Part shown: piece by piece, positions 25,060-31,199 of the stretch
Layout: every line of letters starts with the position of its first letter
Numbering within the stretch: the first letter of the stretch is position 1
Assembly (NCBI GenBank): GCA_020725805.1
Contig: DYEF01000008.1
Coordinates: forward strand, 1 to 31,378
Direction: 5' to 3'
Source: Bdellovibrio sp.
GTDB taxonomy: Bacteria; Myxococcota; SpSt-1050
DNA length: 31,378 nt
Notes under the pieces: generated by a model
Databases searched by the model: none
What the model saw: the letters and a program-made list of their open reading frames with translations, nothing else
What the model was told of the DNA's origin: nothing
Translations under genes and position numbers: made by a program

Positions 25060-25992
25060 ATGAGAGACTATATCTTAAGGAAAATATTCATCTCGTTCCT
25101 TACTGTGCTCGGTGCAGTGAGTCTCGTCTTTTTCATCATTCATATGATACCCGGTGACCCTGTTGAGAATATGCTCGGCGAGCAGGCATTGTCGGTAGAC
25201 AAGGAGAGGATAAGGGAGGCACTGGGGCTGAACAGACCTCTTATAGAGCAGTATCTCGTCTTTCTGAAAAATGCCGCAAAGGGAGACCTCGGGGAGTCGC
25301 TTTACAGAAAAGGGACGAAGGTCTCTGAGCTGATTGCAGAGAGATTTCCGAACACTTTCATACTTGCGGTCTCTGCTATGCTTGTTGCGATATCTGTTTC
25401 CCTTATTGCCGGCATTCTTTCGGCGATCAGGCGGGGTACCATAACGGATTCGCTGATAATGGCACTCTCCGGTTTCGGGATATCTGTTCCGGCATTCTTT
25501 CTCGGTCCGCTCCTTTTGCTCGTCTTCTGCAGGTACCTCAAATGGCTTCCGCCGCCCGCATCAGCAGAGGGGATTCTGAGTCTTGTCCTCCCGTCCGTAA
25601 CACTCGGCTTTGCCCTTGCAGCATTTCTCTCGCGTCTCATAAGGTCACAGATGCTCGAAGTCCTGTCGGAGGATTATATAAGAACGGCATACGCAAAGGG
25701 ACTATCCAAAAGGGTTGTTATACTGAAACACGCACTGTCGAATATACTTGTCGTTGTAATAACCATTGCAGGTATGCAGTTCGGTTCGCTTCTGACGGGC
25801 GCAATAATAACGGAGAGGGTATTTGCCTGGCAGGGGATAGGGACACTCCTGATAGAGGCAATTACAAAGAGGGATTATCCCGTTGTTCAGGGTACGATTA
25901 TTCTGGTCTCGTTTATGTATGTTGTTATCAATCTACTTACCGATATTTTTTATGCGGTAATAGACCCGAGAATAAGATATGCAAAGGATTAA
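25060..25992 (+). CDS. DppB-like peptide ABC transporter permease
   Basis: The 310-residue inner-membrane protein has the DppB/OppB pattern: MRDYILRKIFISFLTVLGAVSLVFFIIHMIPGDP, a periplasmic loop, several transmembrane helices, and the EAA loop YIRTAYAKGLSKRVVILKHALSN that contacts the ATPase. It ends FYAVIDPRIRYAKD as usual. It forms a heterodimer with the following permease. No substrate-binding protein or ATPase gene is in the window, so substrate is open. Its neighbour nagZ suggests murein peptides, an inference. Confidence 0.94.
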   Translation: MRDYILRKIFISFLTVLGAVSLVFFIIHMIPGDPVENMLGEQALSVDKERIREALGLNRPLIEQYLVFLKNAAKGDLGESLYRKGTKVSELIAERFPNTFILAVSAMLVAISVSLIAGILSAIRRGTITDSLIMALSGFGISVPAFFLGPLLLLVFCRYLKWLPPPASAEGILSLVLPSVTLGFALAAFLSRLIRSQMLEVLSEDYIRTAYAKGLSKRVVILKHALSNILVVVITIAGMQFGSLLTGAIITERVFAWQGIGTLLIEAITKRDYPVVQGTIILVSFMYVVINLLTDIFYAVIDPRIRYAKD

Positions 25993-26785
25993 CTATATAG
26001 CAGGTATTGTCATAATAACCGCTTTTGTTTTTGCCGGCATTTTTGGTCCGTTTATGCCCGGGGTGTCGGGTGAACAACCCTCAATAGAGAACCAGCTCAG
26101 ACCTCCGTCAGGTGAGGCTTTCTTCGGGTATGACGAGAGCGGATACAATCTTTTCCACAGGATTATTGCAGGGGCACGTATCGCGCTTGTTGTAGGGCTC
26201 TTTACCACACTCATATCGGCATTTACCGGAAGTCTTATAGGGGCCGTCTCGGGATATTTTGGCGGAATTACAGACGAGATTATTATGCGGATTGTAGATA
26301 TCCTGATGTCTTTTCCCGGGATTCTGCTCTCTATCTCCATTATCGCCGTAACACAGAATCCTTCGTATGCAATGATAATATTTGCTCTCTCTATAACCTC
26401 ATGGGTCCCTTATGCGCGGCTTGTCAGGTCCCAGACGCTCTCACTTGTCAACAGGGATTTTGTAGTCGCTGCAAGGGCAATGGGGGCAGGCGATTTTTAT
26501 ATTATCAGAAGACATATCCTTCCGAACTGCTTCAACTCAATAATCGTTCAGGCGACCTTCGGTGTGGCAGCTGCCATCATTGCGGAGTCGGCCCTCTCCT
26601 TTCTGGGTATCGGACCGCAGGATTCGTCCAGCTGGGGGGCGCTTATCGATTCAGGCACACAGTACCTGCTTATCAGGTGGCATCTGGCATTTTTCCCGGG
26701 TCTCTTTCTCTTTATTACCGTTATGGGTATGAATATGTTCGGTGACGGGTTGCGGGATAAACTTGACCCCAGACTTAAAATGTAG
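25979..26785 (+). CDS. DppC-like peptide ABC transporter permease
   Basis: The 268-residue permease shows FFGYDESGYNLFHRIIAGARIAL, the DppC hallmark, and the EAA loop FVVAARAMGAGDFYIIRRHILPNC, ending FGDGLRDKLDPRLKM. It overlaps the dppB-like gene by 14 nt and has a short N-terminal cytoplasmic part. It is the partner of the preceding permease. Confidence 0.94.
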   Translation: MQRINYIAGIVIITAFVFAGIFGPFMPGVSGEQPSIENQLRPPSGEAFFGYDESGYNLFHRIIAGARIALVVGLFTTLISAFTGSLIGAVSGYFGGITDEIIMRIVDILMSFPGILLSISIIAVTQNPSYAMIIFALSITSWVPYARLVRSQTLSLVNRDFVVAARAMGAGDFYIIRRHILPNCFNSIIVQATFGVAAAIIAESALSFLGIGPQDSSSWGALIDSGTQYLLIRWHLAFFPGLFLFITVMGMNMFGDGLRDKLDPRLKM

Positions 26786-26808
26786 CAGTATAAGATTCAG
26801 GGTTGTTT

Positions 26809-27864
26809 ATGAACAGTAGCGAAAGAGCAGCATCACTTTCAATGATTGTCGGGATATCCGGGACAAAACTTCTTGAAGAGGAGAAACTTCTTCTGTCCGG
26901 GATTAGCCCTCTGGGTGTAATACTTTTTAAGCGGAATTACGAAAATCCGCAGCAGCTGAGAGAACTTACCGCTCAGATAAAGGACTGCTGCAACAGGGAT
27001 GACGTTGTTATATGTGCGGATCAGGAGGGAGGAAGGGTTCAGAGATTCGGTGAACCGTTTACTATAATTCCCTCCGCAAGGGTCATAGGCAGTACCGAGA
27101 ATGAATACCTGGCACTTGAGGTCGGAAAGATTATTGCGGCCGAACTCCTTGCCTGTGGTGTCAATATGAATCTTGCGCCCGTATGTGACATAAATACCAA
27201 TCCGCAGAACAGGGTTATCTCGGACCGCGCCTACGGAGAGACCGCGGATATTGTTATGAGGATGTCAGAGAGTGTAATGAACGGACTTTCGGAAGCCGGT
27301 GTTCTGACCTGTGCCAAGCATTTCCCCGGGCACGGAGATACCCTTCTGGATAGTCACGAGGCACTTCCAGTCTCACAAAAGAGTCTAAGTGAACTTTACT
27401 CTCTGGAACTCCTCCCCTTTATCAACATAGCCGAAAAGGGTGTGGATGCCTTTATGATGGCACATATCCTGTTCGAGAATATCGACCCCGGACTTCCTGC
27501 CTCTATGTCCCGGAAATTTATGGACCTTTTGAGAAACGAGATCGCCTTCGAAGGGGTTATTATGACTGATGATATGGAAATGAAGGCCGTTTCGAAGTTG
27601 TACAGTGTCCCTGAGGCCTGCTCTGTATCAGTGGCAAACGGTGCCGACGTGGTGCTTCTCTGTCATACCCCTGAATTTCAGAAAGATACATTTGAACGTC
27701 TGAAGAGATATTATCTTGACAATCCGCAAAAAATAGAGACAAAATTGAACCGTATGGAGAAGTTTCTTTCGGGATTGAGTAAAGAATTGCCTGATATCTC
27801 TGTTGTCGGGTGCAATAAACATAAAGATATTGTCAGAGAAGTTATGGAACTTGCAAATATTTAA
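26809..27864 (+). CDS. nagZ: Beta-N-acetylhexosaminidase NagZ (GH3)
   Basis: NagZ removes GlcNAc from anhydro-muropeptides in cell-wall recycling. The 351-residue protein has ICADQEGGRVQRF, NMNLAPVCDIN, the KHFPGHGDTLLDSH loop with the Asp181-His183 catalytic dyad, and the nucleophile in MTDDMEM (Asp254). No signal peptide is seen, so it is cytoplasmic. ATG 26809 is preferred over an in-frame TTG two codons earlier. It lies 23 nt after the permease pair, which may import its substrate. Confidence 0.95.
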   Translation: MNSSERAASLSMIVGISGTKLLEEEKLLLSGISPLGVILFKRNYENPQQLRELTAQIKDCCNRDDVVICADQEGGRVQRFGEPFTIIPSARVIGSTENEYLALEVGKIIAAELLACGVNMNLAPVCDINTNPQNRVISDRAYGETADIVMRMSESVMNGLSEAGVLTCAKHFPGHGDTLLDSHEALPVSQKSLSELYSLELLPFINIAEKGVDAFMMAHILFENIDPGLPASMSRKFMDLLRNEIAFEGVIMTDDMEMKAVSKLYSVPEACSVSVANGADVVLLCHTPEFQKDTFERLKRYYLDNPQKIETKLNRMEKFLSGLSKELPDISVVGCNKHKDIVREVMELANI

Positions 27865-27878
27865 GCAAAGGAGTTTTT

Positions 27879-29885
27879 ATGAAGAAAATTTCCTTTTTGA
27901 TTCTTTTGTTGCTGCCGTCTGTTCTCTTTGCATCCGGTCTGCCTGAGAATGCGGATGAGATGGAGTATTTTTCAGGATTGCTCAAGAACGCCTATAAGAG
28001 AATCGGAGTATATAAAAACGAGAGGCTTCTAAACTATAACAGGGTAGTCCTTCCGGTTCCGCCCGCAGCAGTGGCACAGGGTGAGGATTTCAAGATTCTC
28101 AATATGAATCTTACAATCCTTCCGGTTGTCGGGAATTCCGAAAAAGAGTCAAAACTCACGGTAAATGACCAGATACTGATAAAGGTGACGGGCACATCTC
28201 CTCTGCAAAGTGCGCTTTTTTATACAAAGTCGTATGAGAAGATTACGGCAGATTCACCGGATACGGAGATTAAATATACGGTTGAGCCGTACTTTTATGA
28301 CGAGAGCATATCGATAATTAACATAGAGTTCAAGAACCCTGTTGTTAAGGATACTGTTTTAAGAATCAATATCACAACCGAGGGAACGCCGCTCTGTGAC
28401 CCGTCTCCCTTTCTGGGACTGGTAACTTGTCAGTACAACAAGGAACTTACTTATGACCTCTCTGTCCTGCATCCTTTGCGTGCAGACGGGAAGGAAGATG
28501 CCTTTTCGTTTGATATATCGGTGATAGTGCCCAATGATTATTTCACGACAGCCTCAGGAGAGTTTGCCGGCAGCGTGGAGAACGGGGATGGCACAAAGAC
28601 AGAACTCTGGCATAACGATGTGGCACAGTTTGTTGCATTCGGTATGGCGAAATTTGACAGATATTCGACCGAATACGAAGGGCAGAACAATATCAAATAT
28701 CCTATCAGCAGTTTTGTCCTTCCGGCAAGAGCCGACAAGGCAAAGGGATTTCATCCGCTCGTAGGAAAGGCGTTGAGCTGGTATTCAAGGAAGTTTTATC
28801 CGTATCAGTTCCCCGTTATTTCCTTTAATGAGATAAGTTCAACATCGGAGGCTGCATATGCAACGCCCATGGCTCAGTTTATGCCGGCTTCCCTTATAGA
28901 TGAAGGGGCAGAGGATTATCAGGCAATCGAGACATTCGCTCACGAAGTTGCACATCAGTGGTGGGCATTTATGGTAATGGGTTCGAATTATGAATACCCG
29001 TGGATCAATGAGGGTTTTGCTGAATTCAGTTCTATGGAATTTGCCACACAGGATAATCCCCTCGCAAGGGCTTTTATGTACGGGGTATATGCATTTCTGT
29101 ATTTTTACATTGTAGAGCCCAAAGACGATGTCCCGATATGTTCCGATGATGTATTCAAGAACGATTACAATTATGTGTTGCTGACGTATTACAAGGGAGC
29201 TCTCGTCCTTGCACAGCTGCTCAATATTATGGGAGAGGATATGTACAAGGTTCTCTCGCACTACGTCTCCAGAAATCTGTTTCAGTTTTCGGATGTTGTG
29301 AGACTCAAGGAGGCTTTTAAGGTCATAACAGGAGATGATTATTCGTGGTATTTCGACAAATGGCTTTATGAAGCAGGTTATCCTGTCTATTCGGTAAAAT
29401 ATGATATCAGAAGCGATAAGGGTAAGAATTATGCAGACCTTTTTATCAGTCAGACAGCCTCGACCTACAACGAGGAGACCGGAGAAAATGTTATCTTCGA
29501 TATGCCTCTGGATATCGCATTTTATGATGATAATAAGGCGGAGATAAAGAGAATTACAGAGAGGGTAAACGGAAAGACTTTTGAAAAGAGTTACGAATTT
29601 TCCGAGAATGTCAACAGTCTTACTGTTGACCCGTCTGTAAAGATTTATCTGAAGAGACTGAGGTCGGCTCTCAAGGGAGATATTAATCTGGATATGGAAG
29701 TAGACGGAAGGGACGTTCTGGTCACCGCATATTCCTACGGATTTAACTGGTACAGCTATTTCGAGAGGGAAGGTGCACGGTTTTTGCCGAATGCCGATAT
29801 TGATATGAACGGAGTTGTTGACGATGCGGATCTGACGGCAGTGGTGGAAAATTTCGGGAAGTGTCTTCTGAGCTCCTGTAAGTAA
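27879..29885 (+). CDS. Exported M1-type metallopeptidase with C-terminal dockerin
   Basis: The 668-residue protein has a signal peptide (MKKISFLILLLLPSVLFASG), a beta-rich N-terminal domain and a zinc peptidase domain with HEVAH at 355-359 and Glu378 in NEGFAEF (HExxH-x18-E, the M1 pattern). YYKGALVL follows, as in M1. The usual G-x-M-E-N exopeptidase motif is not evident. Residues 600-668 carry a type I dockerin-like pair of calcium loops: DINLDMEVDGRD (601-612) and DIDMNGVVDDAD (640-651), both with ligands at positions 1, 3, 5, 9 and 12. An AAAGGAG site precedes the ATG. The adjacent gene encodes a candidate cohesin. Confidence 0.92.
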   Translation: MKKISFLILLLLPSVLFASGLPENADEMEYFSGLLKNAYKRIGVYKNERLLNYNRVVLPVPPAAVAQGEDFKILNMNLTILPVVGNSEKESKLTVNDQILIKVTGTSPLQSALFYTKSYEKITADSPDTEIKYTVEPYFYDESISIINIEFKNPVVKDTVLRINITTEGTPLCDPSPFLGLVTCQYNKELTYDLSVLHPLRADGKEDAFSFDISVIVPNDYFTTASGEFAGSVENGDGTKTELWHNDVAQFVAFGMAKFDRYSTEYEGQNNIKYPISSFVLPARADKAKGFHPLVGKALSWYSRKFYPYQFPVISFNEISSTSEAAYATPMAQFMPASLIDEGAEDYQAIETFAHEVAHQWWAFMVMGSNYEYPWINEGFAEFSSMEFATQDNPLARAFMYGVYAFLYFYIVEPKDDVPICSDDVFKNDYNYVLLTYYKGALVLAQLLNIMGEDMYKVLSHYVSRNLFQFSDVVRLKEAFKVITGDDYSWYFDKWLYEAGYPVYSVKYDIRSDKGKNYADLFISQTASTYNEETGENVIFDMPLDIAFYDDNKAEIKRITERVNGKTFEKSYEFSENVNSLTVDPSVKIYLKRLRSALKGDINLDMEVDGRDVLVTAYSYGFNWYSYFEREGARFLPNADIDMNGVVDDADLTAVVENFGKCLLSSCK

Positions 29886-29896
29886 CGGAGGTTAAT

Positions 29897-30544
29897 ATGA
29901 ATAACAAGGTTATTGTGTTTGTAATACTGGCAGCATTAATTGCTGGTTGTGATGCAAGAAATATTCAGTCTGTTGAGAGTTTTGATATGAGGGATATACA
30001 GATACTGAAAGATAATGGCTCTGCAACGGATGATGTTGTTCAGTCAGATGTGTCCGGAGATACGTCAGATGTGTACGAACCGCCATTAAAACTGATATTC
30101 GAGGCGGACAATCAGAGACCGGTATTCGGAGAGGTAGCACTGGTTCCGTCAATGGCAGACGACAAGATTATGGTAGTCGATATGCTGCTCGGCGGCGATG
30201 ACAATATGAAACTCTCCTTTTACGGGTTTTATTACAGGCTGAGTTTCCCTGAGGATGTTCTTGAGGTCGAGACAATAAGTGTACACCCTGAAATACCGGT
30301 GGGGAAAATAAACAAATTCACAATCAGGAAGGGAGAGATTATTGGAGTAATTACCAATAAGGGTGAATCGGAGATGCTCTCGCTCGGGTGCAAGAAACCT
30401 CTTATTTCGGTCAGATTCAGAATCAAGATGATCAAGGCCGGAAGAATAGATATTATTACTTCAAAGACAGGTATTCTGGATGATAAACTAAAGCCTGTTG
30501 TAAATAACTATTTTGGCGGCAAACTGTCTATAATTCAGAAGTAG
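29897..30544 (+). CDS. Lipoprotein with cohesin-like domain
   Basis: The 215-residue protein has a lipoprotein signal (VILAALIAGC, Cys18), an acidic linker rich in Asp, Ser and Val (SDVSGDTSDVYEP), and a beta-sandwich domain from about residue 70. The domain shows features of cohesins: SFYGFYYRLSFPEDVLEVETISVHPE, a middle stretch ending GEIIGVIT, then PLISVRFRI and a final strand GGKLSII. Cohesins bind dockerins, and the gene directly before ends in one. A GGAGG site lies 5 nt from the ATG. The cohesin call is by pattern only; a related beta-sandwich of other function is possible. Confidence 0.75.
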   Translation: MNNKVIVFVILAALIAGCDARNIQSVESFDMRDIQILKDNGSATDDVVQSDVSGDTSDVYEPPLKLIFEADNQRPVFGEVALVPSMADDKIMVVDMLLGGDDNMKLSFYGFYYRLSFPEDVLEVETISVHPEIPVGKINKFTIRKGEIIGVITNKGESEMLSLGCKKPLISVRFRIKMIKAGRIDIITSKTGILDDKLKPVVNNYFGGKLSIIQK

Positions 30545-30556
30545 GGAGGATTTTTG

Positions 30557-31120
30557 ATGAAAAGGACACTGTGTTTTATTGTCATCTTTTCTGTGTTTAT
30601 CTTTTCCTGTCGCATCAGAAGTATAGAACCCGAAGATTATAAACCACAGATTGAAGGGCACTTAAGCCCGAAGGAAGTAAAGGAGATTATTGAATATAAA
30701 TTTTCGAAGGCAGGAATCAAGCTCGCTCCGTTTGTAACTCTCAATCTGAGAGGAATTAAAATAAGGACTGACGGATATGATTCCAATCTGAATGTAGGGT
30801 ATGTATATCTTATTGAACCACCGGAGAATATGAAATTTACTGAAGAGTATCAGAGACCTCTTACCAAGTCAGAAATGGATGAACTTGAAAGGCTCAGAAA
30901 GACAGAAGGATATTATATTCTTTTCATAAACGAGGGACCAAAAGAAAAAGTTGAGGCAGCTGCCGACGAGTTTCTGCAGTTGCTTTACAGTAAAAATGTT
31001 CTGCTAAAATATAAGGCTCCGGAACCCGAAAAGGAATCTGTTGAGAAAACAAAAGAGAAATCTGAGAATAAATCTGAAGATAAACCCGCGGATAGCAAAG
31101 AAGAAGATAAAGCAGAATGA
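30557..31120 (+). CDS. Lipoprotein with charged C-terminal tail
   Basis: The 187-residue protein has the lipobox signal MKRTLCFIVIFSVFIFSC (Cys18), a compact alpha/beta domain (HLSPKEVKEIIEYKFSKAGIKLAP, then YILFINEGPKEKVEAAADEFLQLLYSKN) and a Lys/Glu-rich disordered tail from about residue 150. ATG 30557 follows GGGAGG. It is the last gene of the envelope operon. No family recognised. Confidence 0.82.
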   Translation: MKRTLCFIVIFSVFIFSCRIRSIEPEDYKPQIEGHLSPKEVKEIIEYKFSKAGIKLAPFVTLNLRGIKIRTDGYDSNLNVGYVYLIEPPENMKFTEEYQRPLTKSEMDELERLRKTEGYYILFINEGPKEKVEAAADEFLQLLYSKNVLLKYKAPEPEKESVEKTKEKSENKSEDKPADSKEEDKAE

Positions 31121-31125
31121 CGAAG

Positions 31126-31199
31126 GGCACTTAAGTGCCAGGCATCATGTGGCTGGTGTTGTGTCTGGTGCCAGGCATAATGGGTAGTTATGGGTAGTT
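31126..31199. repeat. REP-like palindrome with direct repeats
   Basis: GGCACTTAAGTGCC (31126-31139) is a perfect 14-bp palindrome 5 nt after the last stop. It is followed by GTGCCAGGCAT twice (31135-31145 and 31168-31178) and by ATGGGTAGTT twice in tandem (31180-31199). Such clusters resemble REP elements moved by RAYT transposases. No T-run makes it a standard terminator. Confidence 0.7.

Follow-up and report, generated by a model that had tools for sequence, protein, structure and literature searches.

Two adjacent genes of the window, the whole stretch of 31,378 nucleotides that was analysed, encode an exported M1-type metallopeptidase with a dockerin at its C-terminus and a lipoprotein with a cohesin-like domain. 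According to their sequences, the two genes most probably form a private anchoring pair, one case of a general plan in Myxococcota for dockerin-tailed exported proteins. In the proposed mechanism, the peptidase would be exported via Sec, its C-terminal dockerin would fold around two calcium ions outside the cytoplasm, and the calcium-loaded dockerin would plug into the cohesin-like domain of the lipoprotein encoded alongside. The lipidated N-terminus of the lipoprotein, followed by a flexible linker, would tether it to a membrane, and the peptidase would be kept at the envelope instead of diffusing off. The same plan would apply to an M1-like peptidase, an M4 metallopeptidase or a VPS10/BNR-repeat protein, each with its own cohesin-lipoprotein. 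We infer that the two proteins would bind each other physically, that the binding would depend on calcium and be one-to-one specific, and that the tethering would be of benefit. The anatomy of the genes is displayed in Table 1.

Table 1. Position of the paired genes, their parts and their same-strand neighbours in the window.
Feature	Position	Strand	Evidence or remark
Two peptide-type (Opp/Dpp-type) ABC permease subunits	25060-26785	same strand as pair	
GH3, NagZ-like signature	26803-27864	same strand as pair	directly upstream of peptidase; E 1.6e-69
M1-type metallopeptidase with Sec signal peptide and C-terminal dockerin, 668 aa	27879-29885	+	Pfam Peptidase_M1, E 3.3e-11
Sec-type signal peptide of peptidase, about 19 aa, MKKISFLILLLLPSVLFASG	27879-27935	+	read from sequence
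Zinc motif HEVAH-x18-E (H355, E356, H359, E378)	28941-29012	+	intact in window, lost in G002 relative (HATSG)
Putative catalytic Tyr437 within TYYKG (Y-x-K-G motif)	29187-29189	+	
Dockerin module, residues 600-661	29676-29861	+	profile A6; A6 PDB search puts dockerins first
Calcium loop 1, D601-D612, DINLDMEVDGRD	29679-29714	+	ligand residues
Calcium loop 2, D640-D651, DIDMNGVVDDAD	29796-29831	+	ligand residues
Lipoprotein with C-terminal cohesin-like domain, 215 aa	29897-30544	+	profile searches (A1, A11), profile-profile comparison
Lipoprotein signal peptide, lipobox LIAGC, lipidated Cys18, Asp at +2	29897-29950	+	read from sequence
Polar linker, predicted tether	29951-30112	+	composition; outside A11 match
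Cohesin-like beta-sandwich domain, about 145 residues	30113-30541	+	A11 match; PDB cohesins; low-confidence model
Third small lipoprotein	30554-31120	same strand as pair	

The HExxHx18E zinc motif and the catalytic tyrosine, which we take to be Tyr437 from general knowledge of the family, are both present in the window peptidase and mark it as an M1 member. Its relatives in the PDB are aminopeptidase N, ERAP and similar enzymes, matched over the catalytic core. The GxMEN exopeptidase motif, reported as missing in an earlier note on this DNA, is indeed degenerate or absent, but its loss is common to all relatives examined; therefore, aminopeptidase activity is not to be assumed. Additionally, C173 and C184 of the window peptidase are invariant in six aligned dockerin peptidases and likely form a disulfide, which would fit an extracytoplasmic enzyme. 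In the G002 homologue (L038:7503-9530), HATSGQ replaces HExxHQ, and H359, E356 and the tyrosine (ASMKG) are gone. This homologue, a probable pseudoenzyme judging from these substitutions, still has the dockerin and the adjoining cohesin lipoprotein, which implies that anchoring can outlast catalysis.

The tail of the peptidase contains two calcium loops of 12 residues each within its last 69 residues, both with ligand residues at positions 1, 3, 5, 9 and 12. Two ligand-complete loops are kept in nearly all M1-like relatives. When profile A6, made from these tails, was compared with the PDB, the best six matches were all dockerins, C. thermocellum included (best E 1.9e-4), and the weaker matches included EF-hands. 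The window peptidase alone scores nothing with Pfam Dockerin (Dockerin_1); the tails of relatives reach 22.3 bits, just under the cut-off of 22.9, and one other dockerin passenger lies above it with 26.9 bits. The single-sequence AF2 model of the isolated tail (pLDDT 51) is uninformative on the helical fold. The earlier note had described an M1-type peptidase ending in two full dockerin calcium loops, and both the loop residues and the A6 matches agree with it. By loop pattern and profile match, the tail is a dockerin.

The next gene begins 11 nt after the peptidase gene and encodes a protein with the signal peptide, lipobox and cysteine of a bacterial lipoprotein (LIAGC at C18), so that its earlier description as a lipoprotein gene is borne out by both coordinates and lipobox. 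The window lipoprotein alone has no match to Pfam Cohesin or to the PDB, and a contig search with it as query gave no confirmed relatives. Pfam Dockerin and Cohesin are thus silent on both window proteins, single-sequence domain calls miss both, and the domain calls therefore rest on profiles of relatives. Profile A1 consists of five lipoproteins, that of the window and its relatives beside dockerin-tailed M1-like genes in G001, G002, G012 and G192. All 10 of its matches among all PDB sequences are cohesins (best E 2.4e-5). The G012 relative (P0005) passes Pfam Cohesin with 30.2 bits against a cut-off of 24.1, and the G002 relative matches it at E 0.007. After removal of the G012 row, the top PDB match of A1 is still a cohesin (E 0.14), and hhalign to cohesins gives E 2.9e-4. 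With the enlarged profile A11, 11 of 12 PDB matches are cohesins. The hhalign E-value of A11 is about 1e-6 against a cohesin set (five Pfam-positive cohesins and one PDB cohesin fragment), compared to 0.06-0.45 against four control sets (Ig, TIG, Big_7 and PKD-like).

The single-sequence AF2 model of the lipoprotein domain is mostly beta and of low confidence (pLDDT 60). Comparison of this predicted fold with cohesins agrees weakly with the earlier reading: the best Foldseek match of the low-confidence model is the cohesin 1g1k (E 5.6e-3), but VIA-align on the same model does not separate cohesins, the best Z of 7.4 being similar to that of other beta-sandwiches (7.1). That the mature domain is cohesin-like, as had been proposed, agrees with the PDB matches of A1 and A11 and with hhalign and its negative controls. 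Membership of the C-terminal domain in the cohesin superfamily is well supported by sequence, and profile comparison establishes this relationship for the M1-associated lipoprotein domains as a group.

The distribution of the pair was surveyed in a phylum set of 195 Myxococcota genomes; loci of this set and a Pyxidicoccus locus share 81-84% DNA identity. In the genomes of the four first relatives (G001, G002, G012 and G192), the lipoprotein adjoins the dockerin-tailed M1-like gene. A partly blind search of the 195 genomes, in which only the dockerin tail and no neighbour information was used, gave five more genomes with dockerin-tailed M1-like genes (G112, G157, G182, G183 and G194), and each of the five new loci adjoins a lipoprotein gene; the mature domains encoded there match the cohesin-like family, and hhalign relates this group to A1 at E 6.6e-7. 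The five lipoproteins of alignment A9 have no direct match to Pfam cohesins. It can be seen that every genome of the 195 with a dockerin-tailed M1-like gene, 10 of 10, has an adjacent cohesin-like lipoprotein, and the lipobox is present in the partners of all ten. The lipoprotein gene comes first in G012, G194, G112, G157, G182 and G183 and the peptidase gene in the other four genomes, and several pairs overlap by 4 nt. Conversely, 10 of the 11 places with strong A11 matches in the phylum lie beside a dockerin-tailed M1-like gene. The only exception is an orphan cohesin-lipoprotein (G012:C37), the second copy in a genome with two dockerin peptidases. Co-occurrence in relatives, which the earlier note had proposed as a check, thus holds in both directions, and a lipoprotein homologue lacking a dockerin partner is not a regular occurrence.

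In G012, two tandem dockerin peptidases have a TIG-cohesin lipoprotein upstream (L037:4735-9194), and a second TIG-cohesin lipoprotein stands alone on another contig (L054:7068-7922), giving the genome two dockerins and two cohesins in total. When contigs were searched with the peptidase alignment, the matches were generic M1 peptidases; the double dockerin-loop pattern is seen in just one of them, L069 (Zixibacteria), whose neighbours have no cohesin profile match.

Apart from the M1-like peptidases, two other kinds of protein carry dockerins in the phylum: thermolysin-like M4 metallopeptidases, about 1430 aa long, and proteins with VPS10/BNR repeats, about 1000 aa long. Almost all of them adjoin a lipoprotein, in which Ig-like repeats usually precede a C-terminal domain. 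In the BNR group, these C-terminal domains (A7) match A11 at E 8e-8; in the M4 group, they (A8) match A7 at E 3.4e-10. The A8 domain is not directly linked to either A1 or Pfam cohesins, its link running via A7 and, weakly, via A11; A7 gave no matches in the PDB, and A7 and A8 tie to cohesins only via A11. By this chain of profiles, the domain of the M4-group lipoproteins is likely a cohesin. A7 alone finds 72 places in 46 genomes, including M4-type lipoproteins, which are not in the profile.

Adjacent pairs, counted by matching dockerin and cohesin profile hits, occur in 44 Myxococcota genomes. A cohesin-like hit lies within 8 kb on the same strand for 46 of 52 full-length dockerin hits, where about 0.1 would be expected, these adjacency counts taking in related genomes that are not phylogenetically independent. 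Under one lipobox rule, a lipoprotein is adjacent at 26 of 28 dockerin loci and at 4 of 67 M1 genes without dockerin; this rule was loosened after the first pass, and for this reason and because of the related genomes no p-value is quoted for the comparison; the effect size does not depend on it. Moreover, 18 cohesin-like lipoprotein ORFs had no accompanying dockerin hit above threshold, yet 16 of them come directly after a gene whose product has a divergent dockerin at its end; the two genes mostly overlap by 4 nt, and in many cases the first loop alone is canonical. The pairing is more than a chance event, as it is found repeatedly throughout the phylum. These findings suggest that, in Myxococcota, the gene of an exported protein is often accompanied by one for a membrane anchor reserved for that protein.

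Two variants deserve mention. In the dockerins of the BNR-type passengers at L181-L191, L193, L197 and L198, one calcium loop is canonical and the second half is degenerate, and the passenger genes overlap the cohesin-like lipoprotein gene by 4 nt; from the loop pattern, such single-canonical-loop dockerins may have a single binding mode. In G171 (L055:3055-6983), three lipoprotein-like genes stand in a row, the third with a Pfam-positive cohesin, and no obvious dockerin gene is nearby.

The genome to which the window belongs (3.29 Mb, 97.9% complete) encodes two Omp85 proteins, and its envelope is therefore taken to be diderm. Its one dockerin match (A6, E<=0.05) is on the peptidase; Pfam Cohesin finds nothing, and A11 finds one place, so that dockerin and cohesin stand one to one. 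No multi-cohesin scaffoldin was found in this 97.9% complete genome with Pfam Cohesin and A11, and the A6 search did not find several dockerin-bearing glycoside hydrolases. The earlier statement that neither a scaffoldin nor a glycoside hydrolase was in view stands for the scaffoldin and is wrong for the glycoside hydrolase, since a GH3 gene lies directly upstream of the peptidase gene. The GH3 protein lacks both a signal peptide and a dockerin.

Two permease subunits, the GH3 protein, the peptidase, the cohesin lipoprotein and the third small lipoprotein, for which Pfam and NCBIfam gave no match, are encoded in a tight same-strand run. A sister genome (L007) keeps the order of the run, with the third lipoprotein at 6391-6945 of L007. 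The distant genomes that were read keep only the peptidase-lipoprotein pair, and the permease and GH3 genes are absent beside it. The permease and NagZ-like GH3 genes upstream of the pair indicate a possible link to peptide or muropeptide uptake. Just 3' of the operon, at 31124-31177, lie a palindrome, GGCACTTAAGTGCC, and two exact copies of GTGCCAGGCA; with at most one mismatch, GTGCCAGGCA has five copies in the window against 0.6 expected and resembles a REP-like element.

On which membrane the pair would sit is the point where a variant of anchoring competes best. The pair may be periplasmic or at the inner membrane instead of at the cell surface, with the peptidase near the Opp/Dpp-type permease for peptide uptake or recycling of murein peptides. 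Such a location is possible but doubtful. The compact gene run of this genus, which includes a NagZ-like GH3 and two subunits of a peptide-type permease, agrees with it, as does the Asp at +2, a residue that retains lipoproteins in the inner membrane of E. coli (cited in PMC3222651); however, the permease and GH3 genes are absent beside the pair in the other lineages read, and none of the ten M1-associated lipoproteins read has the Lys at +2 that inner-membrane lipoproteins of M. xanthus prefer (PMC3222651). Matrix lipoproteins of Myxococcus prefer Ala at +7 (PMC3222651). The window lipoprotein has Asp at +2 and Gln at +7, and by Myxococcus rules it would therefore belong to the outer membrane; these rules are those of a distant relative and are silent on the face. 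The residues thus point to an outer-membrane lipoprotein, for which either face, surface or periplasmic, is possible.

Strict one-to-one adjacency and translational overlap would fit equally well if the lipoprotein were a dedicated chaperone, inhibitor or regulator that binds the dockerin or the catalytic domain, with anchoring only incidental, in the manner of proteases encoded beside their inhibitor or foldase. This is unlikely: the conserved part of the lipoprotein is cohesin-like, its partners share a dockerin tail on unrelated M1, M4 and VPS10/BNR proteins, and the G002 peptidase without catalytic residues keeps both dockerin and partner. An inhibitor of the active site would not track passengers of three unrelated families. 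Least likely of all is that an ordinary EF-hand-like, calcium-stabilising extension merely neighbours a generic beta-sandwich lipoprotein without mutual binding, since the Pfam scores of the single window sequences under the cut-off, the AF2 tail model with pLDDT 51 and the EF-hands among the weaker A6 matches are outweighed by co-location far above chance, by dockerins as all six best PDB matches of the tail, and by relatives that score above or just below the Pfam cut-offs for Dockerin and Cohesin.

The private anchoring pair is therefore the preferred reading, and in it the two halves are adjacent, translationally coupled genes, with the lipid anchor on one and the enzyme or exported protein on the other. 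It is moderately probable that the pairs represent a widespread modular display system, in which unrelated exported proteins would each have their own lipid-anchored, mostly unannotated cohesin with one-to-one specificity, a diderm functional analogue of sortase or of type IX C-terminal anchoring. Because most of the lipoprotein domains are unrecognised by Pfam, the system was probably overlooked. To our knowledge, cohesins and dockerins outside cellulosomes have long been listed without being given a definite function. The natural pairs make the role of non-cellulosomal cohesins, and the question of which dockerin fits which cohesin, directly testable. They could further serve as orthogonal docking modules in protein display.

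A literature search on dockerins and Myxococcus, which was not exhaustive, found no description of such pairs. As far as the literature was searched, the lipoprotein-cohesin as a dedicated adjacent partner is new, and so are the spread through Myxococcota with three passenger families and the escape of most partner domains from Pfam. The kind of system is already known from other cases. In Archaeoglobus fulgidus, a cohesin and a dockerin occur outside cellulosomes, likewise in an organism without multi-cohesin scaffoldins; their binding has been shown and put to use in surface display, with proteins docked on E. coli (PMC9705933; PMC9012536). That pair is archaeal, whereas the window pairs a diderm lipoprotein bearing the cohesin with an M1-type peptidase as passenger. 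In ANME archaea and syntrophic sulfate reducers, non-cellulosomal cohesins and dockerins have been inferred and read as consortium adhesins or scaffolds; they are similarly envelope-related, and some of their genes are adjacent (PMC9012536, PMC10553843). Up to five cohesins occur per ANME protein, in contrast to one cohesin per lipoprotein, with one partner, in the window system. As for the enzyme itself, the window peptidase resembles the M1 metallopeptidases aminopeptidase N and ERAP in the HExxHx18E and catalytic tyrosine motifs and in the match of the catalytic core, and differs from them in its C-terminal dockerin and missing GxMEN. Also comparable are dockerin peptidases of clostridia, the S8 protease of C. 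thermocellum with a double dockerin and the cysteine peptidase of R. flavefaciens directed to ScaE, for which anchoring at the surface by a cohesin has been proposed (PMC12484212). Those peptidases are Gram-positive and cellulosomal, while the pair of the window has no cellulosome, carries a lipid anchor, and has its partner gene directly adjacent.
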